DNA from: Terramyces sp. JEL0728
Lineage: Eukaryota; Chytridiomycota; Chytridiomycetes; Rhizophydiales; Terramycetaceae
Direction: 5' to 3'
DNA: 11,464 nucleotides
Assembly (NCBI GenBank): GCA_027603945.1
Contig: JADIIU010000222.1
Coordinates: forward strand, 1 to 11,464
The notes below the pieces were generated by a model. The model did not search any database. It was given only the letters and a program-made list of their open reading frames with translations, and was not told the origin of the DNA. Below, in pieces: positions 179 to 11,406 of this stretch (position 1 is the stretch's first letter; the number at the start of each line of letters is the position of its first letter). Position numbers and translations under genes: made by a program.

Positions 179-819
179 ATGACCACTGACGTTGATGTCC
201 AAACGACACTGCAACAACAAACATCAAAATCGCAGTACGAGTATCCGTCCCCAAAAGAATCTTGCCCGCCGACCCCAAGATTAGCAGAATACAAAGTGTC
301 AAAGAGGAAATCGACACCCTCGAGATCCCTCTCACACATCAACAGCACAGACGAAAAATATCTACAAGGAATAGTCACTCTTGACGTTTATTCAGTATAC
401 AGAGACAATCCGCAAATGTTGCTAAATAGAGCAGAAAAGAAGGAACTACCTTTCGACTTGGCTAACTTCAAGAACACAAGAGGGGCACCAGAAGTAGTGT
501 GGAAAAAAGGTATTTTCAAACTAAATAGGTGGAGTGTTGGATATCTCGCCAGATGAAGATATGTATGATCAACTGACACCTGAAGAAATCCGCATTAGTT
601 CAACATTACGCGTTTTACCGTTACAATATCTACACATAAAAGAGACGATCCTCACCCAAGTACATAAACGCGGACCATTCAAAAAAAGAGACGCAAAATC
701 TTGGTTTAGAATAGATGTAAACAAGGTAATTTTTAGTAATGTAGACTGCCATACTATTTGACTGGTTCAAGGCACTGGGATGGATCCCATCGGATGACGA
801 GTGGGAAAAGAAAAAGTAG
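179..819 (+). CDS. SWIRM-domain protein, fungal Fun19/YOR338W type
   Basis: Exons 179-509, 529-725 and 745-819 give 200 residues ending at TAG. The two introns are both 19 nt (510-528, phase 1; 726-744, phase 0). The C-terminal 75 residues are a SWIRM domain, a helical module of chromatin proteins that binds DNA or histones. Visible signatures are LTPEEIRISSTLRVLPLQYL (126-145), then RIDVNK (171-176), and TAILFDWFKALGW (177-189) directly after the second splice. Without that splice the DWFKALGW helix is lost. Residues 1-110 are polar and probably disordered, with Ser/Pro/Lys-rich stretches, as in fungal proteins that carry the domain at the extreme C-terminus. The ATG at 179 is chosen because a TGA (173-175) lies in frame just upstream. 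Its exact chromatin partner cannot be told from sequence. Confidence 0.87.
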
Positions 820-835
820 ATTATAGACACAATAG

Positions 836-841
836 AATAAA
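836..841 (+). terminator. AATAAA polyadenylation signal of the SWIRM gene
   Basis: AATAAA starts 17 bases after the SWIRM stop codon and is followed by an AT-rich stretch. The position fits a short 3' UTR. Confidence 0.45.
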
Positions 842-995
842 TAGACCCTTTTGCGAAATACAGCGCGTCATTAGAACAAGCAATTTTTAATAAATATTAC
901 CTTTAAAAGAGTATTGAAAATTGTATTAATGAAATCAACAATGAAAGTGTCTTGTGGCATAACCTTGTATTTCTCCATCTGGATTGGACAGCACC

Positions 996-1067
996 GAGAT
1001 TGGCACTGAGATTGGCACTGAGATTGGCACTGAGATTGGCACTGAGATTGGCACTGAGACTGGCTCT
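996..1067. repeat. 12-bp minisatellite, unit GAGATTGGCACT
   Basis: Five exact copies of GAGATTGGCACT run from 996 to 1055. A sixth, diverged copy (GAGACTGGCTCT) follows at 1056-1067, and a weaker relic (GATTGGACAGCACC) may precede the array at about 982-995. Exact identity of the inner copies with decay at the flanks is typical of slippage-driven minisatellites. On the minus strand the unit reads as a Gln/Ser/Cys or Ser/Ala/Asn/Leu repeat. Confidence 0.9.
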
Positions 1068-1288
1068 GATCATCAATTCGCAATAGCTGGAATTCTCTAA
1101 TGCTGTCATTGTAATTTGACTATATGATAGGTGCGCTGCCCTAAACCGTCACCTGTAAATGTAAAACTGGTGCTACTCTGCTGATCCAACTTGTAATCTG
1201 AAATACTTACCTCTCACACCCAAATTGCTATATTCAATTTCTTTTAGTGTATTTATCAGTTATCGTCTTGGACAAACAATGGATTGAA

Positions 1289-1308
1289 ACGTCAATAATA
1301 TCTGACGT
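1289..1308. promoter_or_regulatory. Inverted ACGTCA/TGACGT pair (CRE-like) before the RING gene
   Basis: ACGTCA (1289-1294) and TGACGT (1303-1308) are exact reverse complements with an 8-base spacer, ending 38 bases before the ATG at 1347. TGACGT is the half-site core of ATF/CREB-type bZIP factors. The function is inferred from motif and position only. Confidence 0.28.
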
Positions 1309-1346
1309 GACCCTGTCAAATACATTGTTTTTATTCAAAAATTAAC

Positions 1347-2563
1347 ATGGAGCATACAGATACAGAATCAGAAACTTTCTCAGAGTCCAATTTCACTCCT
1401 AATGAAGGGATACTGGAAAATCTCTTGCCGTTCACACCTCCAAGAGAGAGAACAGAGCCATTGGAGAATAGGAGGGTAATGTCACTATTCCTCAAAGCGC
1501 TTCTGTCTTTGATCTTTCGGCTATGGATTGCGACTCTCACCGTTTCTGTTTTAATGTATTTTGTAAGAAGAGTTCCGTTACAGCCAATTGTACACCATTC
1601 TGGAAAATTAGTAAGAGAACAAATACTAGAGGCAAGTATAGCAGGAGAGCAAAATGATTGGCAAGTCACTCCGGCATTGTTTGGAGCTCCATTCGAATCT
1701 GAGATAACAGGTAATGGGTTTCTAATGGAAGGACCAGCAATGGCACTGGAACATAATGCATGTCTGCCATTTACTTTTAATTACACAATAGACTACAAAA
1801 TTGACATGGAAATTAAAGATCACTCATTAATTGGTCTAGTAACCCGTGGCGGATGCGAATTTGACAGAAAAGCATTCCATATGCAAAACGCAGGATTCAC
1901 TGTTGCCTTAATTTACAACAACGATAATGAACAAGCATTAGCCAATATCAGAATGTCATCCCACTCGATGGGCGACAAGGTCCAAATCATGGCTGGATTT
2001 ATGAATTTATATCAAGCTACTCAGTTGCTGGATATTATAGAAGATAAACAGTCGCATCTACTAAAAATCACTCTTCCATACCAAGAGTGGATAAACAAGA
2101 AAATAGTTATTAGTGGCTTAATAGACATGCTTCTACTCTTTGCCCTGGTGGTTGTTACCGGAACAGGATTCTTGCTCCTCGGCCTAGCAATAAACATTGG
2201 CCACAATTTAGTCACTAGAGGCCAGTTTCTTACTCTAGAAACAATCCACGAAGCATCTATATTAATTTTAGCCATTTCACCATCATCAAATCCGCCAAAG
2301 CTTGAAAAAATTACTTTTCCTACAAAAATATTGGCTGAAAGCGACTTGACTGCTAGTTGGAAAGAAGGTGGTATTGCAGGACACGAAAGCTGTCCGATTT
2401 GTATTGAAGAATTTGAAGTTGGAAATGTGCTTCGAGAACTTCCATGTCATCACGTATTCCATGACACATGGTAATTAAACATTAATGCAGTGTTGATCCA
2501 TGGTTACTAGGACATAACAGACTATGTCCAGTTTGTAAACAAGATGTATTAAAAGTTGAATGA
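1347..2563 (+). CDS. PA-TM-RING membrane E3 ubiquitin ligase
   Basis: Exons 1347-2470 and 2491-2563 give 398 residues ending at TGA; the intron is 20 nt (2471-2490, phase 2). Domains in order: an acidic cytoplasmic-type N-terminus (1-43); a hydrophobic segment (about 45-70) that could be a signal anchor; a protease-associated lumenal domain (about 100-240) with the typical LVTRGGCEFDRKAFHMQNAG stretch; a second membrane segment (about 252-285); and a RING-H2 zinc finger (349-390). The RING reads C-x2-C, then CHHVFHDTC, then C-P-V-C, so all eight metal ligands are present. Splicing is needed to supply the second half of the finger; unspliced, the protein ends in HDTW and is dead. The family (RNF13/GRAIL-like, fungal Tul1-like in role) ubiquitylates membrane or vesicular cargo from Golgi or endosomal membranes. 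Two membrane segments, rather than signal peptide plus one, leave the topology open. Confidence 0.92.
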
Positions 2564-2586
2564 ATATCACATGCAGAATATTTGGA

Positions 2587-2592
2587 AATAAA
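2587..2592 (+). terminator. AATAAA polyadenylation signal of the RING gene
   Basis: AATAAA begins 24 bases after the RING stop, within the 71-base gap to the convergent Oca-like gene. The two 3' UTRs must be very short or overlap. Confidence 0.4.
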
Positions 2593-2634
2593 TGATTATC
2601 AATTGCTGTTACTTGATTGGGTTATCAAAATATA

Positions 2635-3482
2635 TTAATTCCTACCATATTCAAGGTCAAGGGCCATTATAGTGCGACTTACGCGAGCTTCTTGCTCAAA
2701 TTCCAACCGGCTGTCAAAGGTATTCTGTCTCTTTGGCGTCTGTGTCCCTTCTTCTGGGTCATTGTATACCTTGTCGTCTAAAATTGAGCCTCTTTCAGAA
2801 GTAGAAGGCAACCTGGATGCAGGCAATAGATTTGTATTGGAAAAAGAAGATCGGAGTGTGCTCAAATCCAAGAGAGATGGTTCAGCTTGAGTAGTGCCCA
2901 GTCTTAGCTTCAACGTAGGATGCTTTTTAGGATTGACGATAGCAAATACCCATTTTGGCAGTCTAGCAACTAAATTTACCGGGATTTCAAGTTCTCCGTT
3001 AAATTTTGTTACAAATTCAACCTCTTCAGACGATAGTTCATCTTCCTTTAGAAACCTGAATTAGTTTAAACTACCTTTGGGCTTCAGAGAGGTATGAATC
3101 AGCCGACCATCCTTGCAATTTCCTCAGACACATTATTGCAACCATGGTTACGACTGCTCCATCCAGACAATGTACATAGATTGGATGGTACGCTGGATCA
3201 ATCAAGATCAGAAGGATTTGGAAAACTTTTTGAAATGTCAACGGAACATTTTCCTTTGGCTTGTCTATCTTTATATGCATGTGAGTTATATTTTCCTTTG
3301 TACAATACTCTTCGATGTTTGGTTGGTGTGGGGTTAGAGACAAGATTGTTTTTAATTGCAAACGTCGCAGGAACTCTAAATTTCGCTGCTTCAGATATCC
3401 GCCTTTGTTACCATTATGTACCTCTGTATACATCCTCTTCAACGCATCCGAATCTGAGAGGCGGGAACAAGTAAAAGTGCAT
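2635..3482 (-). CDS. Oca/Siw14-type tyrosine phosphatase-like protein, probably inactive
   Basis: Read right to left, exons 3482-3422, 3402-3075 and 3055-2635 give 269 residues ending at TAA. Both introns are 19 nt (3403-3421, phase 1; 3056-3074, phase 2). The first splice creates the family opening FPPLRFGCVEEDVYRGGYLK (6-25), followed by NLEFLRRLQLKTILSLTP (28-45). The P-loop region is PIYVHCLDGAVVTMVAIMCL (94-113). Cys99 of the HC motif is present, but the arginine expected at Cys+6 is Val105, so the CX5R signature is broken. Yeast has a set of related Oca proteins, and I recall several of them also having imperfect signatures. The domain continues to LPKWVF near residue 170-185, and the remaining tail is polar. 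Likely role: a non-catalytic or phosphate-binding member of the Oca complex, linked in yeast to inositol pyrophosphate metabolism and TOR-related signalling (inferred). Confidence 0.88.
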
Positions 3483-3521
3483 TTTCGCAAAGAAAAATCC
3501 AGCGAGCAGGAAACGGATATT

Positions 3522-3695
3522 ATGCGAGCAGGAATAAATATTATTCAACAGCACGGCAATCTGGATATCACTCTCAAATTAAACCGCGGAGAGCAGGATT
3601 ATGCGACTGACGAGGGTTGCAGTAGTCCATCCTCAATAACAGCAACATGGACTGAAATCCAGCCTCATTCCGATCGCACTCCATTTCAATTGTAA
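3522..3695 (+). CDS. Doubtful small ORF, 57 residues
   Basis: ATG at 3522 to TAA at 3693-3695 encodes 57 polar residues (starts MRAGINIIQQ, ends SDRTPFQL). It starts 39 bases from the Oca-like start, divergently, and ends 12 bases from the end of NUXM, convergently, so it would fill the gap neatly. I recognise no family. The same DNA also has a minus-strand ATG frame (3684-3574, 36 residues), so openness is weak evidence. It could equally be a 5' leader or promoter DNA of the Oca-like gene. Confidence 0.22.
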   Translation: MRAGINIIQQHGNLDITLKLNRGEQDYATDEGCSSPSSITATWTEIQPHSDRTPFQL

Positions 3696-3702
3696 AACTA
3701 TG

Positions 3703-3708
3703 TTTATT
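3703..3708 (-). terminator. AATAAA signal overlapping the NUXM stop codon
   Basis: On the minus strand the NUXM stop TAA (3710-3708) shares its last A with AATAAA (3708-3703). This predicts an extremely short 3' UTR. The Sec5 gene has the same overlap. Confidence 0.4.
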
Positions 3709-4114
3709 TACCATTGCTGATCACTCCACTTTCTAGGTTCTGCTGGTTCCAATTTACTAAACATTTCAACTTCTCTACTATTTTCTTGCCATCCCCAGAA
3801 GCGAACTAGGATTAAAAATAAATTACGCAACACATTCTGGTAAGAGTACATAAATCCTGCAAACATAAAGAACGGCACCTGGACCATCATAATTCTAGGG
3901 AGTAGTCTAGGGTGGCATGAAGGTGACGAGCGTTCTTGTATTAATTGTAATTACCCCATAAATAGAATGCTGCTGGGAATCCTGTTCCAAACAAACCAAT
4001 GTTGAGGTAATCCCGAGGTCTGAAGAATGAAACTACTGTTTTTACATGTGGATTTTCATCCAGTTTTTGGAATGGGACATGCTGGTTATCTGGAAGGTTT
4101 GAAAAGAATTTCAT
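3708..4114 (-). CDS. Mitochondrial complex I subunit NUXM (fungal 21-kDa type)
   Basis: Exons 4114-3955 and 3934-3708 give 128 residues ending at TAA; the intron is 20 nt (3935-3954, phase 1). The family, known from Neurospora and Yarrowia, is a membrane-arm accessory subunit of NADH:ubiquinone oxidoreductase. Matching features are NPHVKTVVSFFRPRDYLNIG near residues 23-42, a hydrophobic segment (GLFGTGFPAAFYLW), a second one after the splice (MMVQVPFFMFAGFMYSY), and the family motif RFWGWQENSREVEMF. The protein then stops within about 16 residues, whereas the fungal subunits I know continue for several tens of residues, so it is C-terminally short. I chose the ATG at 4114 because it gives the usual 20-30 residues before the FRPxDY motif. 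An in-frame ATG at 4189 would add 25 residues. Confidence 0.8.
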
Positions 4115-4148
4115 TTCCAAGTTTTTTGATTGAAAAAAATAGCAAGAA

Positions 4149-4154
4149 TTTATT
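4149..4154 (-). terminator. Candidate AATAAA signal for MoaD
   Basis: AATAAA on the minus strand lies 92 bases after the MoaD stop and 35 bases before the chosen NUXM start. It is the only such hexamer in the 131-base gap. Confidence 0.3.
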
Positions 4155-4245
4155 AGACGGGTCGTTAGAATTAATGGTACACAGAGCATCGCCAAAGGAT
4201 AATTAATGAGATACCATAGCGCATCCCGGTGTTGGTTACCAACAT

Positions 4246-4503
4246 TTACCCGCCAGAGACTGGTGGTATTAGTGCGATTTCGTCTCCTTCTCGAAGGACG
4301 ATATCATTACCATCCGCATCCTTTCCATCCAATTCCACATACTCTAAATTGACTGCCAACATGCACGCTGGTAATATCTTGGATAACTCTGGATATTGTC
4401 CAAGCAAGCACTCTATTAATTCCGGGATTGATTTCGTTAATGGTATCTCTGCAGTCGCTGTATTTGTGATCTCCTTGGCTGCTGCAAAGAACAGAACTTT
4501 CAT
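4246..4503 (-). CDS. MOCS2A: Molybdopterin synthase sulfur carrier subunit (MoaD/MOCS2A)
   Basis: An uninterrupted 85-residue frame with start ATG at 4503 and stop TAA at 4248-4246. It has the ubiquitin-like beta-grasp pattern of MoaD: MKVLFFAAAKEI at the start, LAVNLEYV in the middle, then GDEIALIPPVSGG at the end. The C-terminal Gly-Gly is the residue pair that becomes adenylated and thiocarboxylated, then donates sulfur to cyclic pyranopterin monophosphate on the MoaE/MOCS2B subunit. The product serves molybdenum enzymes such as nitrate reductase and sulfite oxidase. The frame is open further upstream to 4680 but has no earlier ATG, and the length matches the family. In animals MoaD and MoaE share one transcript; no MoaE is present here. 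Confidence 0.94.
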   Translation of the reverse strand: MKVLFFAAAKEITNTATAEIPLTKSIPELIECLLGQYPELSKILPACMLAVNLEYVELDGKDADGNDIVLREGDEIALIPPVSGG

Positions 4504-4570
4504 TTTTTGTAAAGAATTTGTTGGATGAAAAATAGATTTGATTAGGATATCGTTGAATAAGTTGTAACGG

Positions 4571-4750
4571 CTAGAGCAGCGAATAAATTGCCCTTGAAAT
4601 TGATTGATGTAATATGAACATCCCTGCCCGCTTGATTGAACCAGCCCTATCCGCCCAAATATCTGCAGATGCGGTATCACGAAATAGATTCTGCCAATAA
4701 CAATTGCTCAAGGCACCAGATAGCTTATTGCAAAACGAGGCATATTCCAT
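4571..4750 (-). CDS. Doubtful small ORF upstream of MoaD, 59 residues
   Basis: ATG at 4750 to TAG at 4573-4571, ending 67 bases before the MoaD start. The frame stays open upstream of the ATG to a TAA near 4860 without another ATG. The 59 residues include several Trp and Cys and a hydrophobic tail (MFILHQSISRAIYSLL). I recognise no family, and it is not MoaE. The opposite strand is also open here, in frame with the HutD start, so only one strand, or neither, is likely to be coding. Confidence 0.25.
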   Translation of the reverse strand: MEYASFCNKLSGALSNCYWQNLFRDTASADIWADRAGSIKRAGMFILHQSISRAIYSLL

Positions 4751-4851
4751 CAGGCTCAACCAAGTCTCCCAGTTGCAATCAGCAGGACTATTGCCACAGT
4801 CCGCGGTTCTGTTTTGATCTACCAGTGGACAAAGTCTATTTTTTTTCGAAA

Positions 4852-7252
4852 ATGGAAAAGCTTACACTACCAGCAAATGTTACGTCTCACCAAAAGAATG
4901 GGAACGAAAAAGAATTAAGCAAGAGTCCCAGTGGATTCTCTGATATATCAAGCGCCGGCACCAACGTTCAAGTTATAACTGTTAATGTAGATCATCAAGT
5001 CATCCCAATCCAACAAACGCATTTGGAAGAACGGACTAGGGCAAACTACTGAAATAGCGATCGATCCACCCAGCTCTGACTTTCACACTGACGATTTTGT
5101 CTGGAGATTCTCTACTTATGAAGTACATGATTCGTGCAATTTCTCATTATTCCCAAACCACGATATCACGCTTGTCCTGTTGCCTGACGCTCATCAAAAT
5201 AGCACTTTCTCGAGAGCTCAAATTCGCCATTTGGATTTTGAAAGCCCTGTAGATCTACATGTTTGTCAGCCTTACACATATAATGGGGAGTGGAATACTT
5301 CATGTAAAATCACTTCTCAGCCATTGAAATTGCTCAACATCATGACCAACAAAATGAAGGCAAAGGTAAGCGGTGTTGACTTAGATATCCGTATCCGTTG
5401 AAACTATTTGCTCAAACTCACTGCTTAGTGATGACAGTTCCGCTGAAAATCTTCCGTTCACTTCAGATCCCATTGATATTAGTGAAATTCCAAACAAAAT
5501 GTCAAAGCTGGAGCTGGAAGAAATTGTAGAATCTGGAACACCGCATACCAAAATTGGTCCGTCAACTTCAACAATGTCAATGGGTAACATTACTATCTTG
5601 TATGTCATTAAAGGATCTATCAAGGTCAATGTTGAAGGAAATTCCAAATCATTTGTTGTAGAAAAAGGAACTACCTTAGTATGCGATAAAGATAAGTCGT
5701 CGTTCCCAACCGATGTTACAATGACGCCTTTGCTTAAACCAACCACTACTGGAGAATACGACTATGTTGTCAAGGGTGGATTGGGAATCTCTACCATCTC
5801 GGAATCGGAAGAGACAGGTAACCGAAGCTAATCAAGACGATGCAGTGGTAATTTTGGTCCACATTTATCTTTTACCTTCGCCTCTATTGCCTGCTGACAG
5901 TGCAATCATGAGTCCCCCTATCATCAATTCTTATCCATCCAGTGCTTCTCTTGTTCAGGGTCAATCTGGGCCACGAAATAGCAGGACTCGTAAAGGATCC
6001 ATCATTGTTTATGATGATCAACCAATGATGAATTTGCCTAATGAACTTATGAGAAGGGAATCTATTGCGGCTGAATTAGGCAATGTCGGCAAAGGGAAAA
6101 CAAATTTGTCGACAAAGTATTGGGAATCCGCTCATCATTACATCCCGCCTGTACTATCTGACAGACATTGCAATGAGAGCGATGTGCCGCCTCCAATTGT
6201 TCGAGACGATTTGAATATCGAGGACTTTCCTGCCGGAACTATCAGCACCGCGTGGATCAATATGGTGAAGCAAGGCTTATCAGAATGGATTAGAATTCCA
6301 GTTATTGTTGCTAGGGGCACACAAGCAGGGTAAGCATCATTAATGTAGCCCGGTTGTCGGCATTACAGCGGTTGTCCACGGAAACGAATTGAACGGCGTA
6401 CCTTGTATCCACAGAGTTATCACTGATATTGACGTATCGACATTGATTGGTACTGTGGTTGCAGTTCCCTGTGTCAATGTACCGGGATATCTTCGATTTA
6501 CCAGAGAATTCTCTGACGGTAAAGATTTGAATAGATCATTCCCAGGGCACGGCAACGGAACTGCTTCTCAAGTATACAATCACAATTTATTCACCAAAAT
6601 CATCAGGAAATTCAATTTTTTGATAGACTTGCACACTGCATCATTTGGTCGCGTCAATTCGTACTATGTAAGAGCAGATATGAATGATGTGGTGTCTGGT
6701 GTTTTAGCCAAGCTACAACAGCCTCAAATCATTTTACACAACAGTGGGCAAGATGGTAAGTGTTGCTTATTTAGGTACGTTGAGATCTGCAGCAAGTAGC
6801 ATTGGCATTAAAGCAATCACAGTAGAAATCGGGAATCCGCAGTTATTCCAAAATCAATACGTTCAATGGTCATACAAAGGTGTGATGAGAATTTTGTCTT
6901 ATTTGAATATGTTTAATTCGGATTTGTCTCTACTAACTGGAGGATCACCACTCACAATTGTTTGCTCGCGCGGATTTTGGTTGTATACCCGAACTGGAGG
7001 TGTTCTAGAGGTCTATCCCAATGTAAACACTATTGTAAAGAAAGGCGACTTGATTGCGAGAATCAAAAACATTTTTGGCAACATCATCGATGAAATCTAC
7101 TCAACCCATACCGGAGTGGTGATTTTATATTGACATAGACAATTGGCCGCAGTTCGAATCCTGTTGCAATGGCTGGAGATCGAATTTTGCATATGGGCGT
7201 CATTAAGAAGGAAAATGAAGTATTGGCTGCTGAAGCAAAGGAAAACTATTAA
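4852..7252 (+). CDS. HutD-AstE/aspartoacylase fusion protein
   Basis: Seven exons: 4852-4971, 4991-5365, 5385-5817, 5837-6329, 6349-6755, 6775-7118, 7139-7252. They give 761 residues ending at TAA. Introns are 19 nt except the last (20 nt). Residues about 40-322 form a HutD-like cupin-fold domain: IWKNGLGQTTEIAID (51-65), DDFVWRFS (74-81), LLNIM (154-158), an acidic insert (about 171-232), ITILYVIKG (234-242), and a last strand DDAVVILVHIY (310-320). A polar linker (about 323-430) leads to an AstE/AspA-type zinc deacylase. This has HGNE (484-487) and H569 in IDLHT as metal ligands, DLNRSFPG (533-540), the catalytic Glu in VEIG (E627), and a C-terminal lipoyl-like beta region ending GRSSNPVA. 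All catalytic residues are present. HutD belongs to bacterial histidine utilisation; AstE relatives hydrolyse N-acyl amino acids. A further in-frame ATG at 4669 would add 61 residues. If the fusion is wrong, the deacylase could start at 5908. Confidence 0.87.
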
Positions 7253-7291
7253 TTTCGACTAGGCAATTTGTTGATTGTTGTTAGACTATGA

Positions 7292-7297
7292 AATAAA
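7292..7297 (+). terminator. AATAAA polyadenylation signal of the HutD-AstE gene
   Basis: AATAAA starts 40 bases after the stop at 7250-7252 and precedes the Sec5 promoter motif by 15 bases. Confidence 0.45.
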
Positions 7298-7312
7298 TCT
7301 ATTTTTATTCTC

Positions 7313-7332
7313 ACGCGATAGTTTCCTCGCGT
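7313..7332. promoter_or_regulatory. Inverted ACGCGA/TCGCGT pair before the Sec5 gene
   Basis: ACGCGA (7313-7318) and TCGCGT (7327-7332) are exact reverse complements with an 8-base spacer, ending 16 bases before the Sec5 ATG. The same hexamers, in the opposite order, lie before the SWIRM gene. The site is MCB-like in sequence; factor and function are inferred. Confidence 0.3.
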
Positions 7333-7348
7333 TTGAGTGGATATCAAC

Positions 7349-10300
7349 ATGTCTGATCCAAAACTGCTGCAAGTAAAAATGCAAGGAAGAATGCGAACTG
7401 GAACTCAAAGTTCTTCATTGCCAAGAGGGCCGGATCGATTCCAAAATATACAGCCAAAAGACTCTGACAGCGAAGAGTCTGAGGATAATGATTCAGCGCA
7501 TCACTCCCAAATAAACTTGGCGCCAACTCAAATGGATTGGACTCCGGAAGAACAGGCGATAGGTATCAGAATTTTAATTCAGTGTTTAAATATTACGGGC
7601 TGGATGCGCTGTTTCCAAAAAAGTGGACGGAAGATGGTTCAATACCCTTAAATAACGGGAACGGCAATTCCAACGTTCAACAAAATGAATTGCTGATAAA
7701 GAAACCTGCTGGACCGGAACAGGATAAATCAGACCCACTAAAGATAAAAGATGCCATCATCAAGTAATGCTCTCTAATAGTAGGATAAAAGGGACACCAA
7801 AGTATAAAGGACAAGATGTATCGGTATTTATTTCAGACAAGAACTTTCATTCAAAGACATTTCTAACACGAATCCACCAAAAAACTGATTTCAAGCAGTT
7901 GGAGCAAGGATTATCCAAATTAAAATCATCCATCAATGAAAAGAGCGATTCTGCTAAAGGCATCGTAAAGAAGCACTTTGCGAAATTTGTTAATGCCAAA
8001 AGTACGATTGATTGTAAGCATAATCTAACAAAGCTTTCTACAAGGAAATGAAAAACAAAAATTTAATTTCACGTCAAGACTTTGGGATACAGCCATTCAT
8101 GGCATCTATCCAGGAACTTGAAACTAGCGCATTGCAGCTGTACGGACCTGTGCTAGAGAGAAGATCCAAAGCAGACAAAATACGAATAACACTTAGTATA
8201 CTGGAGCAATGGAAATTCTTTTTCAATCTTGCTAGTAATTTATCTGAAATGGTAAAGATGGGACGATACGATGCCGCTGTCAGGGACTACAAGAAAGGCA
8301 AGTACTTGATGCAATCGTCATTTGACACTACACTAGAGCCGCTGAAAGAAAATAAAAATGACAAATTTATGAATGATGGATCTGCTCTATTGCCAAGAAA
8401 CTATAAATCGGTATTTGAAAAATTGTGGAGCGAAGTTGAACGGGTGGTTGGGGAAGTAAGAGAGGAAATGTTCAAATCACTCAGTGTAATGTCCAATCCT
8501 ATCGACACACAGGAAAAAATAATGTCATATTTGGTCGAGTTGGATTCCAAAAGAGATCCGATATGGTGCTATTTGGAAACACAATACAACTATATCATTG
8601 ACAATTGCGTTTCGTCGTACGAAGGCCACTCGGAGGTAATGGATGCTATTTTGGCTCAGTCAAAGAATAGACCAATTAGACGGCTTTCGTCATCAGATTC
8701 GCTGGACGTAGTGTTTAGCACCGATTCTCTGAATATGTTGGCAATGCAGTCCAGAAAAGACACCGAATCAGCTAATTCTGTGAATGTCGCATCCTCAGGA
8801 TCTAATCTTGGAGAAGTATCGCCATCAGCACCATGGAAACTAAATGATATCAAGAATGCCTTGAATTGTGTAAAAATGTCTACTTTTGACACCCAATTCG
8901 GAAAGGAATTGCTGGTCTGCTATTGGAAACAAACACTAAAGTTTCTCACCACAGTATGCGAGATTTTGTCAAGGCACTTGCCGCTCTTTTGCAAAACGTG
9001 TAAACTATACACAGAAAGTAAACAGAAAAAGAACAAGCAAATAGAGCAATTGCGTAAACAAACTGGAAGCAAGCGGCTGAAAGATAGTCAATTGATGATG
9101 AACAACATTTTTGGTTTGTTCCATGATATTGCAAGTCTGATATTTGCAATTGAAAAGAAAATTGATTCTGACGACCATAGTGAAGCTGCAAGCATTAAAG
9201 ACTTTATGGCAATGAAGGAAATTACCGGATCAATGCTATCGTTGCTTCCCCTCGAGAATGACAAGTTTGAAGAGAATAATGTAAAGGAAAAGTACAGGAC
9301 CGCACTCGAACAATTGAACCCGTTAATTGATCTAGACTACTTGTCTGCACATCCATTGATGGTCATTCACTACTCTGTCAGAATAATGGAGCTGCTAAAC
9401 AAATGCCATTCCGATATTAAGCCGCACTTTATCTCTGACGACAACTTTTTATCTGCACAAAATTTCACAGATTCAGTCGAATCCATAAGGGATAACTTTA
9501 TAGACAGGATCTGTAATGGCTGGATAGAAAGTAAATATTATTAATGCAGCCTCTGCCAAACTTCATGAATTTGAAGATTGGACTTTTGAGAATAACTTTG
9601 CCCAGACATCCAACCCAAATATTCCAATTAAACCAGATTGTACTTTGTTGATGAAGCTGTCACATTCAATATCGAAATTCATCCTGCAAAGTTTGGCTAT
9701 ATTCTTGGGAAAAGGGGATCCCCAATTAGGATACTTACGAGCTGAAAAAATCAAATCGAGTTTCTTTGAAAGTATGTTTAGACAACTAGATGGGATGGAG
9801 TGGGAAATAACGTTTTGGCGCGATCCAGAGTGTTTATCAGCCGAAGCAAATACTCTAGGCTACGTTGCGGTCGAAAAGAATGAAATATTAAAGAGTACTT
9901 TTCCAAGTAAAAAGTTTGGACAGTTTATTCCTGGAATTACACAGTCAGTATTTGAAGCTACAACACCAAACATGAACACTGGCTTGGTAATTTCTATTGA
10001 TTTTAGGATGCAAGATCATTCATGGTGCTGAGTAACTTGCGGTACATGAGTTTGTCGATGCTGCCAAAATTATCCAAAATGCTGTCTACAAAGTATCAGG
10101 TTTCTGTTTCTGGTGATTTGCAGTATTTGAATGTTACTCTCGAGTTGCTGGAAAAGATTATTATCGCCAACTATACTAAAAAACAGAATGAATTGCTGAA
10201 ACATGTGGTTAAAAGGAATATTTTCTTTTCAGGATTAGACTGGTCGTGTTTACAAAGTCCGCATGGTACTTTTACTTGATTCTAGAAATCAGACATTACT

Positions 10301-10709
10301 GCTATACCATACTGCACCATTTAGTGTATGTGCACGCTTCTATTAGCGAAGTATCAAAGTCTCTTGTTAATAGGGTAATGCAAGAAATAGTGTTACTCTT
10401 GACCCAGGAGCTCCTGCTTGCGTTTAGACAAGTGGATCGATTCAATATAGCTGGTATGCTCCAAGTACGCTATTTCTAATCCAGGCCACGCTAGAAATGG
10501 AATACTTGCAATCAATGCTGAAGGCTTATGAAACTACGACTTCTGCGAATATATTTACGCAGATATATGAGACATTGGAAAGAGCGACAGATCCCGAGGA
10601 CAAGATTGAGCCTTCCAAGATGAATGAATTTGTGGGAAATGTAAAGCAATATTTGCTCACTGCCAAAACCACTACATTTACCCAGTTCAGGTGCTTTGGG
10701 GTGCAATAA
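7349..10709 (+). CDS. SEC5: Exocyst complex subunit Sec5 (EXOC2)
   Basis: Eight exons: 7349-7562, 7583-7763, 7784-8013, 8034-9530, 9550-9986, 10007-10265, 10286-10464, 10485-10709. They give 1073 residues ending at TAA; six introns are 20 nt and one (9531-9549) is 19 nt. Sec5 is a rod-shaped helical subunit of the exocyst, which tethers secretory vesicles to the plasma membrane. Visible family marks are YYGLDALFPKKW (75-86); FLTRIHQKTDFKQL then HFAKFVNAKSTIDSFYKEM (to 214); GRYDAAVRDYKKGKYLM; LWSEVERVVGEVREEMF; LDSKRDPIWCYLETQYNYI; SGLDW; EIRHYCYTILHHLVYVHASI; and FRQVDRFNIAGMLQATLEME. Each of the last blocks appears only after splicing. The length is slightly above yeast Sec5 (971). The N-terminus is Ser/Asp/Glu-rich and disordered. 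The Ral-binding TIG domain of animal Sec5 is absent. The ATG at 7349 is the first in frame. Confidence 0.95.
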
Positions 10710-10710
10710 A
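10705..10710 (+). terminator. AATAAA signal overlapping the Sec5 stop codon
   Basis: The last sense codon CAA (10704-10706) and the stop TAA (10707-10709) together form AATAAA at 10705-10710. If used, the 3' UTR is only a few tens of bases, which fits the 151-base gap to pICln. Confidence 0.4.
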
Positions 10711-10860
10711 ACATTGGATTTTGATGTATTCAAGTGAAGCTGCTGTCCATTGGAATTTATTCCTGCCATCATTTTGGTTTCTTTGACTGTTCTTCTACAT
10801 CAAAAGAGTCTGAAAATCAAAATCGAATTGTTTTCTTTCAAAAACAGATCTAAAGTTTTA

Positions 10861-11406
10861 ATGGCAATTCTTAAAAGCCAGACTGCAGATATCGATCCAA
10901 CCACTGTCAGACTAGCTCTAGACAATGTAGAAATACTGTTTGATCCGATATTAAAGGAAATTACCACAGGAACAGGAAAATTAACAATCACCGACCAGTT
11001 TTTAGTTTGGAATAATGAAATCGTTTGTTTGTCAATCGATTATCCTTCAATACTAATGCATGCGATTTCCAGACAGGATCCGGTTACTCAAAAACCATTG
11101 ATTTACTGTCAGTTGGATGATTCTCTTTGCCAAGAAGAAGACTTGGCAGCTTTTGAAATGAAACTGCTTCCAGCTGATGAATCTCAATTAGAAGCAATTT
11201 ATAATGCGCTGGCAGAGTGTTCTGCTTTGCATCCAGATCCTCAAGATGATTTGGATTTGAATGGTGATGGATGGGTTACTGCGGAGAATGTTGATTCTTT
11301 TAATACTTCAACTGGATTGTTTGATAAACTCTTGGATGAGATGGAATCTCAGGATAATTTGAACAGTAATGGAAAGCGGGAGAATAGCAAAGATTTACTG
11401 CGTTGA
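10861..11406 (+). CDS. CLNS1A: pICln, methylosome subunit and Sm-protein assembly chaperone
   Basis: An uninterrupted 181-residue frame, ATG at 10861 to TGA at 11404-11406. It matches the pICln/Lot5 PH-like fold: TGTGKLTITDQFLVWN (34-49 region), LSIDYPSILMHAISRQD, IYCQLDD, and the diagnostic ECSALHPDPQDD followed by an acidic stretch. pICln holds Sm proteins in an open ring and hands them on during spliceosomal snRNP assembly with PRMT5; older literature calls it a chloride-channel regulator. The frame is open upstream into the spacer, but MAILKSQ aligns with the normal start (human MSFLKSF). The C-terminus is shorter than in animals. No intron interrupts the CDS. It lies 151 bases after Sec5 on the same strand. 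Confidence 0.92.
   Translation: MAILKSQTADIDPTTVRLALDNVEILFDPILKEITTGTGKLTITDQFLVWNNEIVCLSIDYPSILMHAISRQDPVTQKPLIYCQLDDSLCQEEDLAAFEMKLLPADESQLEAIYNALAECSALHPDPQDDLDLNGDGWVTAENVDSFNTSTGLFDKLLDEMESQDNLNSNGKRENSKDLLR

Follow-up and report, generated by a model that had tools for sequence, protein, structure and literature searches.

Ultrashort, probably spliceosomal introns of 19–22 nucleotides in the genome of the chytrid fungus Terramyces sp. JEL0728

Nearly all detectable introns of Terramyces sp. JEL0728, placed by taxonomy look-up among the chytrids (order Rhizophydiales, family Terramycetaceae), are 19 to 22 nucleotides (nt) long, close to the smallest size known to be spliceable. The stretch of DNA analyzed here, hereafter the window, is the 11,464-base contig C222 of the 15.0-Mb, 231-contig genome, and carries 19 such introns in genes of ordinary content. 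Judged from DNA and protein sequence, they are very probably ordinary U2-type spliceosomal introns of this organism, shortened to a floor specific to its lineage. An earlier note on the window, made from the sequence alone, had argued that its gene content fits neither a nucleomorph nor a ciliate, which agrees with the genome being that of a chytrid fungus. Terramyces is free-living and saprotrophic.

Intron lengths in the window and across the genome

All 19 window introns start with GT and end with AG at the coordinates and on the strands given in the earlier note; ten of them are 19 nt and nine 20 nt long, as had been claimed, and the window contains no 21- or 22-nt intron. With the introns removed, complete open reading frames (ORFs) are obtained for all eight window genes, and retention of any single intron in HutD-AstE or Sec5 introduces a premature stop (13/13). 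When aligned to other chytrid proteins, all 15 junctions of HutD-AstE, Sec5 and SWIRM are free of insertions, with the caveats that the flanks at 7764 and 5818 are poorly conserved and that, at or beside four of the junctions in HutD-AstE and Sec5, the deposited models of Boothiomyces show gaps. The introns at 2471, 3056, 3403 and 3935 fall within Pfam-matched domains, their placement being read from coordinates.

The length distribution was assessed on 211 kb of sequence, equal to 1.4% of the genome and made up of 20 regions of 10 kb plus the window itself, using a gene finder with a flat length prior between 12 and 200 nt, applied to coding regions, and with splice-site weights seeded from first-round introns of 19–22 nt. 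The first round, run without weights, already peaked at these lengths (12, 16, 5 and 4 of 109 predictions at 19, 20, 21 and 22 nt, respectively). With weights, 256 introns were predicted, including 53 of 19 nt, 71 of 20 nt, 27 of 21 nt and 6 of 22 nt (157/256), with any other length represented at most four times. On the window, the finder placed 14 of the 19 introns exactly and made two false predictions, and its sensitivity is therefore moderate. The sample was enlarged with loci from other searches to 42 sources and 278 kb, four overlapping or near-duplicate loci being dropped before counting. In this enlarged set, 221 of 357 predicted introns were 19–22 nt long, versus 1–7 for six decoy dinucleotide pairs evaluated with the same weights; these counts include locus L005, which repeats window bases 1–1115 and without which the ratio is 220/356, as well as loci L002 and L003. 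Without weights, GT..AG yielded 100 of 214 predictions at 19–22 nt, versus 3–10 for seven other pairs. Permuting the weight columns left the peak in place, with 77–107 introns of 19–22 nt, and is no test of the peak because GT..AG was retained. An exact pattern composed of GTAATT, 0–30 bases and TTAATNNAG, which reaches introns of up to 45 nt, had 375 matches in the whole genome versus 48 for the reversed control. Among the 100 of the 375 matches that were listed, 58 were 19 nt, 24 were 20 nt, 5 were 21 nt, 2 were 22 nt and 11 were of other lengths (89/100 at 19–22 nt). Both the 211-kb sample and the whole-genome pattern thus present a single peak at 19–22 nt, mostly at 19–21 nt, and the earlier remark that introns lie near the lower size limit with almost no spread extends from the window to the genome as far as it was sampled.

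A second, longer class of introns, located in untranslated regions, exceeding 200 nt or carrying weak motifs, is rather unlikely to accompany the ultrashort ones. The finder explored lengths of 12–200 nt, coding regions and a sample of the genome, and it did return 128 GT..AG predictions of 24–200 nt. The six weighted decoys, however, produced between 221 and 319 such predictions, and a value below the decoy level gives no sign of a longer class in this range; the eight window genes, likewise, contain none.

Two rough estimates of intron number were derived. The exact GTAATT..TTAATNNAG motif is present in 7 of 224 predicted introns, so that (375-48)/(7/224) yields about 10,500 introns genome-wide, while a run with a length prior identified 233 introns of 19–22 nt in the 211-kb sample, equivalent to about 16,500 genome-wide and to 1.4 introns per kb of predicted coding sequence. 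The accessible text of a published survey gives a mean of 3.93 introns per kb for two Chytridiomycota and 5.30 for their ancestor (PMC8476143).

Anatomy of the introns

A strong YTRAY-like branch motif was found in 198 of 224 predicted introns of 18–24 nt, the 26 introns with a weak motif being set aside; these counts, and those of in-frame stops given below, include L005, L002 and L003. In most scored 19-nt introns (58/68), 13 nt precede the branch A and 5 nt follow it, and base 14 is an A in all 71 introns of this length. Scored introns of 20 nt split between a 13+1+6 (44/91) and a 14+1+5 (39/91) arrangement, and 16 of 26 scored 21-nt introns are 14+1+6. The donor is GTAATT-like and the acceptor mostly YAG; about 4–6 free, T-rich bases separate donor and branch (45% T in the donor-to-branch bases), and little space is left for a pyrimidine tract 3' of the branch. 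Intron length is the sum of two short spans, usually 13–15 nt ahead of the branch A followed by 5–6 nt behind it, and the distribution cuts off sharply at 19 nt.

The same geometry was examined in raw sequence, with no gene model, by scanning for GTA, YTAAY and YAG and tallying matches by the number of nt before and after the branch A. The scan returned 66 matches for (13,5), 39 for (13,6), 32 for (14,5), 20 for (14,6), 9 for (14,4) and none for (13,4), with near-zero counts for 12 nt before the A; exclusion of L005 lowers (14,5) to 31 and leaves the other listed cells unchanged. The two spans look independent (39/66 versus 20/32). The (13,4) class, of 18 nt, is missing (0/66 versus 9/41 for (14,4), Fisher P = 1e-4; 0/33 versus 5/19, P = 0.0045, with a stricter donor), in both cases for cells picked post hoc. 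Its absence would reflect either a floor on total length at 19 nt or a preceding A acting as the true branch in the (14,4) cases. On a more speculative reading, given that this 18-nt class is absent from the Terramyces scan (0 versus 9) and apparent in the environmental ORF P0156 described below, the floor may evolve between close relatives.

Selection against lengths divisible by three was also considered, and is weakened as a factor by the raw-scan 21-nt class (14,6), which numbers 20 versus about 19 expected if the spans are independent. In-frame stops are present in 48 of 54 predicted introns of 21 nt, in 55 of 101 of 19 nt and in 90 of 152 of 20 nt; detection favors stop-bearing 21-mers, and only three 21-nt motif matches lie within predicted coding sequence. 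Some selection against lengths divisible by three may remain.

Intron positions in relatives

Introns in related organisms were sought in annotated proteins and in environmental ORFs called unspliced by solving, at each Terramyces intron site, for the insert length that realigns the downstream exon with Terramyces while making GT and AG possible. As a control, 367 of 379 tests on annotated proteins gave a zero insert; of the 12 nonzero results, three score 3.6–3.9 and nine, taken as noise, 1.1–2.5. Intron-like inserts left in annotated proteins were observed in Globomyces JEL0801 (P0011, 30 nt at 9531), Clydaea vesicula (P0092, 42 nt at 6756) and Mucor circinelloides (P0135, 65 nt at 6756). 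Among 63 environmental tests, nine revealed an insert, five of them clearly (scores 4.2–5.7, runner-up at most 2.4): 20 nt in P0148, 18 nt in P0156 and 23 nt in P0159 at site 726, 19 nt in P0134 at site 6756 and 19 nt in P0106 at site 7119. The remaining four, at site 510, are weaker (P0157, 21 nt; P0158, 27 nt; P0152, 27 nt; P0154, 60 nt), with scores of 1.8–2.7 that fall in or near the noise range, although exon conservation 3' of the site is low and three of the four inserts appear in BLAST alignments as insertions no more than one residue from the site. Inserts divisible by three (18, 21, 27, 30, 42 and 60 nt) could in principle be coding instead. A YTRAY branch is possible in P0148, P0156, P0157, P0158, P0152, P0154, P0124, P0092 and P0011, and not possible in P0159, P0134 and P0106; P0156 fits 13+1+4, the pattern absent from the Terramyces scan. 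By similarity, P0148 is nearest to Terramyces, P0156 about equally near to Kappamyces and Terramyces, and P0159 slightly nearer to Gorgonomyces. Read by hand, P0124 ends at a stop whose position is compatible with a 20-nt intron at 6756, and the frame of P0158 would likewise accommodate a GC..AG intron some 23 nt long after DVNK, at the SWIRM 726 site.

Boothiomyces can be inferred to share intron positions with Terramyces from the gaps in its deposited models. The Sec5 model gaps begin exactly at 9987 (JEL0838) and 10266 (JEL0838 and JEL0866), and the B. macroporosus HutD-AstE model restarts one residue before the 5366 junction; over ten gap edges, three are exact, one is within one residue and six are off.

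These comparisons bear on whether the introns might instead be recent gains, namely introner-like insertions of fixed size, a scenario that we regard as very unlikely. It would account for the uniform length, and the few free interior bases are too few to judge similarity beyond the splice motifs; in addition, most environmental tests (48/63) have no insert at Terramyces sites. The positions at 726, 6756 and 7119, however, appear to be occupied in the relatives listed above, mostly at other lengths, as do 9531 in Globomyces and 6756 in Clydaea and Mucor and, less convincingly, 510. Because some relatives appear to have longer introns at the same sites, the Terramyces introns are more probably old introns that shrank.

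Splicing machinery and proposed mechanism

Several components expected of a U2-type spliceosome were identified in the genome. The U2 small nuclear RNA (snRNA) was found with a score of 140 bits and an intact GUAGUA, complementary to the YTRAY-like branch carried by most predicted introns. A large subunit of U2AF is predicted as a protein of 438 aa, parts of which match U2AF65 structures solved for the two RRMs and for the C-terminal domain; it also matches the segment of U2AF59 with a solved structure. The gene model predicted for this subunit itself holds four introns of 20, 20, 19 and 19 nt. The helix-hairpin and KH domains of SF1 were likewise found.

Under the proposed mechanism, old introns would have become shorter until each was pared down to a GTAATT-like donor, a few T-rich bases, a YTRAY-like branch and a mostly YAG acceptor. 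A normal spliceosome would remove them from RNA, with U2 and SF1 at the branch presumably recognizing the intron as one unit and the next AG serving as the 3' splice site. The shortest lengths tolerated by the Terramyces spliceosome would then be 13 nt ahead of the branch and 19 nt for the intron as a whole.

Several observations weigh against this reading. The introns are known from DNA and protein sequence, and the lengths given for relatives derive from amino-acid letters rather than from DNA; six of the environmental tests gave no clear solution, besides the 48 lacking an insert. At donor position +5, a T is found in 94 of 224 introns and a G in 45, and pairing with a canonical U1 would therefore be weak. 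U1 itself was not recovered in an Rfam search in which 41 of 233 candidates were scored, nor with a pattern for its 5' end (four matches, none of them U1, versus 12 in the reversed control), and a pattern for its loop had no match. For U6, scoring of 48 of 1,328 Rfam candidates produced two unconvincing sub-threshold matches that are near copies, a core pattern allowing up to three mismatches found nothing, and neither of two matches to a 3' pattern is U6. As scoring covered a fraction of the Rfam candidates, these results do not prove absence, and both patterns used for U6 might have been disrupted by an intron within its core. The two sub-threshold U6 matches (L032:1501-1606 and L033:1501-1605) are near-identical sequences on different contigs with ACAGAGA and little else conserved. 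Finally, the deposited Terramyces models of HutD-AstE, Sec5 and SWIRM, whose splice choices were judged from protein sequences, match the present ones at 12 of 15 sites and differ at the other three (5818, 9531 and 726), where the deposited proteins lack residues kept by relatives, a loss that the choice of a longer intron would produce.

In a stronger version of the mechanism, the chytrid spliceosome would have been retuned to act as a ruler that measures the whole intron as one unit, requiring at least 13 nt between 5' splice site and branch and at least 19 nt overall up to the 3' splice site, and its U1 would be highly divergent or supplanted; we regard this version as speculative and rather unlikely. 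Much less probable still is removal of the segments from DNA by programmed elimination, or from RNA by a non-spliceosomal route. The failure to recover U1 and U6 would be in keeping with it, but GT..AG ends, a YTRAY-like branch, U2, SF1 and the large U2AF subunit were all found, and the segments stand in the assembled DNA. That the gaps are artefacts, arising from assembly insertions or frameshift errors that resemble introns, is extremely unlikely: despite the purely sequence-based nature of the data and an imperfect assembly, in which two contigs overlap identically close to a tandem repeat, the same donor, branch and acceptor motifs recur in the inserts throughout the sample and genome, decoys show no peak, and relatives appear to hold introns at some of the same positions.

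Comparison with known ultrashort-intron genomes

Statements on the literature in this section refer to the accessible portions of the cited sources. Genomes with only ultrashort introns have been described in relic nuclei, some ciliates and one parasite group (PMC10245619, PMC12316389, PMC9505925). The lengths comparable to those of the window that the earlier note named for chlorarachniophyte nucleomorphs and some ciliates are both in print, as are those of mikrocytids (PMC10245619). The Bigelowiella natans nucleomorph, with more than 800 introns of 18–21 nt (PMC10245619), resembles Terramyces in its near-identical length window and its many introns, but it is the relic nucleus of an endosymbiont with an extremely reduced genome, whereas Terramyces has a 15-Mb fungal nuclear genome. 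Heterotrich ciliates such as Stentor, with introns of 15–16 nt (PMC10245619, PMC9505925), are not reduced endosymbionts either, and a canonical GUAGUA U2 and U2AF homologues are reported for Stentor; its introns are shorter still, however, its lineage is unrelated, and its U1 was found with ACUUACCU, unlike that of Terramyces. Mikrocytids share a very narrow length range (16–17 nt), yet they are parasites whose spliceosome is reduced and whose predicted introns number 224 (PMC10245619), against an estimated ten thousand or more in Terramyces. Microsporidia, relatives of fungi whose introns are called relatively short, differ from Terramyces in their few introns, reduced spliceosome and parasitic life (PMC10245619). 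Cryptococcus neoformans is an intron-rich fungus with introns also called relatively short, but these average 63 bp (PMC8476143), three times the length of those in Terramyces.

No report of ultrashort introns in a chytrid was found in the open-licence literature searched, including the accessible portions of PMC10245619, PMC12316389, PMC8476143, PMC9505925, PMC5364385, PMC6572847, PMC13391722 and PMC11649378, and Terramyces is the first such case that we could find there. On sequence grounds, it is best filed as an independent addition to the known ultrashort-intron genomes that would work as they do. With ordinary gene content in the window and other sequenced members in its order, Terramyces offers a fungal setting for studying the minimal needs of an intron. 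Other chytrids appear to vary at the same sites (18, 19, 20, 23, 30 and 42 nt, from unspliced environmental ORFs and annotated proteins), and the determinants of minimum intron size and the spliceosomal changes that permit it might hence be compared among relatives. For specialists, the points of particular interest would be the floor on intron length and how widely lengths vary from one relative to another.

Genes and deposited models of the window

The eight window genes encode SWIRM, PA-RING, Y_phosphatase2, complex I 21 kDa subunit, ThiS/MoaD, HutD-AstE, Sec5 and Voldacs/pICln-like proteins, where the Y_phosphatase2 gene is presumed to be of the Oca/Siw14 type, the ThiS gene to correspond to MoaD and the Voldacs gene to pICln. 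The SWIRM gene (179-819, plus strand) has two 19-nt GT..AG introns. Removal of the first (510..528, phase 1) restores the ORF, with a junction continuous with Globomyces, Gorgonomyces and others; at the second (726..744, phase 0) the junction is also continuous and the deposited protein lacks VNK. The PA-RING gene (1347-2563, plus strand) has one 20-nt GT..AG intron (2471..2490), which falls where the protein, once spliced, matches the Pfam RING domain. On the minus strand, the presumed Oca/Siw14-type phosphatase gene (2635-3482) carries two 19-nt GT..AG introns (3056..3074 and 3403..3421), both inside its match to PF03162, and the complex I 21 kDa subunit gene (3708-4189) a single 20-nt GT..AG intron (3935..3954), inside its match to PF10785. 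The ORF is restored by removal of each of these four introns.

The HutD-AstE gene (4852-7252, plus strand) has six GT..AG introns assessed by orthologue alignment. Five are of 19 nt: 4972..4990 and 5366..5384 (both phase 0), 5818..5836 (phase 1), where the deposited protein is three residues short, 6330..6348 (phase 2) and 6756..6774 (phase 1), the site shared with P0134. The sixth, of 20 nt (7119..7138, phase 0), is at the site shared with P0106. The seven GT..AG introns of Sec5 (7349-10709, plus strand), assessed in the same manner, measure 20 nt at 7563..7582, at 7764..7783, with a protein flank that is variable outside Terramycetaceae, at 8014..8033, at 9987..10006 and 10266..10285, where the Boothiomyces gaps described above begin, and at 10465..10484, and 19 nt at 9531..9549, where conserved residues are missing from the deposited protein.

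The window's SWIRM, HutD-AstE and Sec5 proteins are 99, 100 and 99% identical to deposited HDV01_003356, HDV01_003359 and HDV01_003360 of Terramyces sp. JEL0728, respectively. An annotation pipeline with a minimum intron length of 20 nt was considered and ruled out, as several 19-nt introns are compatible with the proteins deposited for HutD-AstE and SWIRM. In practical terms, deposited Terramyces and Boothiomyces models drop conserved exon residues at or near some intron sites. The deposited Sec5 protein, HDV01_003360, runs on into the downstream Voldacs gene (window 10706-10861), a fusion that is probably an annotation error, because QFRCF lies close to the end in several relatives. HutD-AstE and Sec5 adjoin (window 4852-10709), and their locus tags are adjacent or near-adjacent in Kappamyces, Polyrhizophydium and Rhizophlyctis, an apparent old gene neighborhood.

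Window bases 1-1115 are identical to the end of contig C12 (L005:944-2058; 1,115 bases), and a tandem repeat with unit GATTGGCACTGA lies at about 990-1065 of the window; C12 and the window contig are adjacent contigs overlapping near a repeat. Loci L002 and L003, both on contig C18, are SWIRM-bearing loci about 62 kb apart that have long identical stretches in common and represent a recent local duplication.

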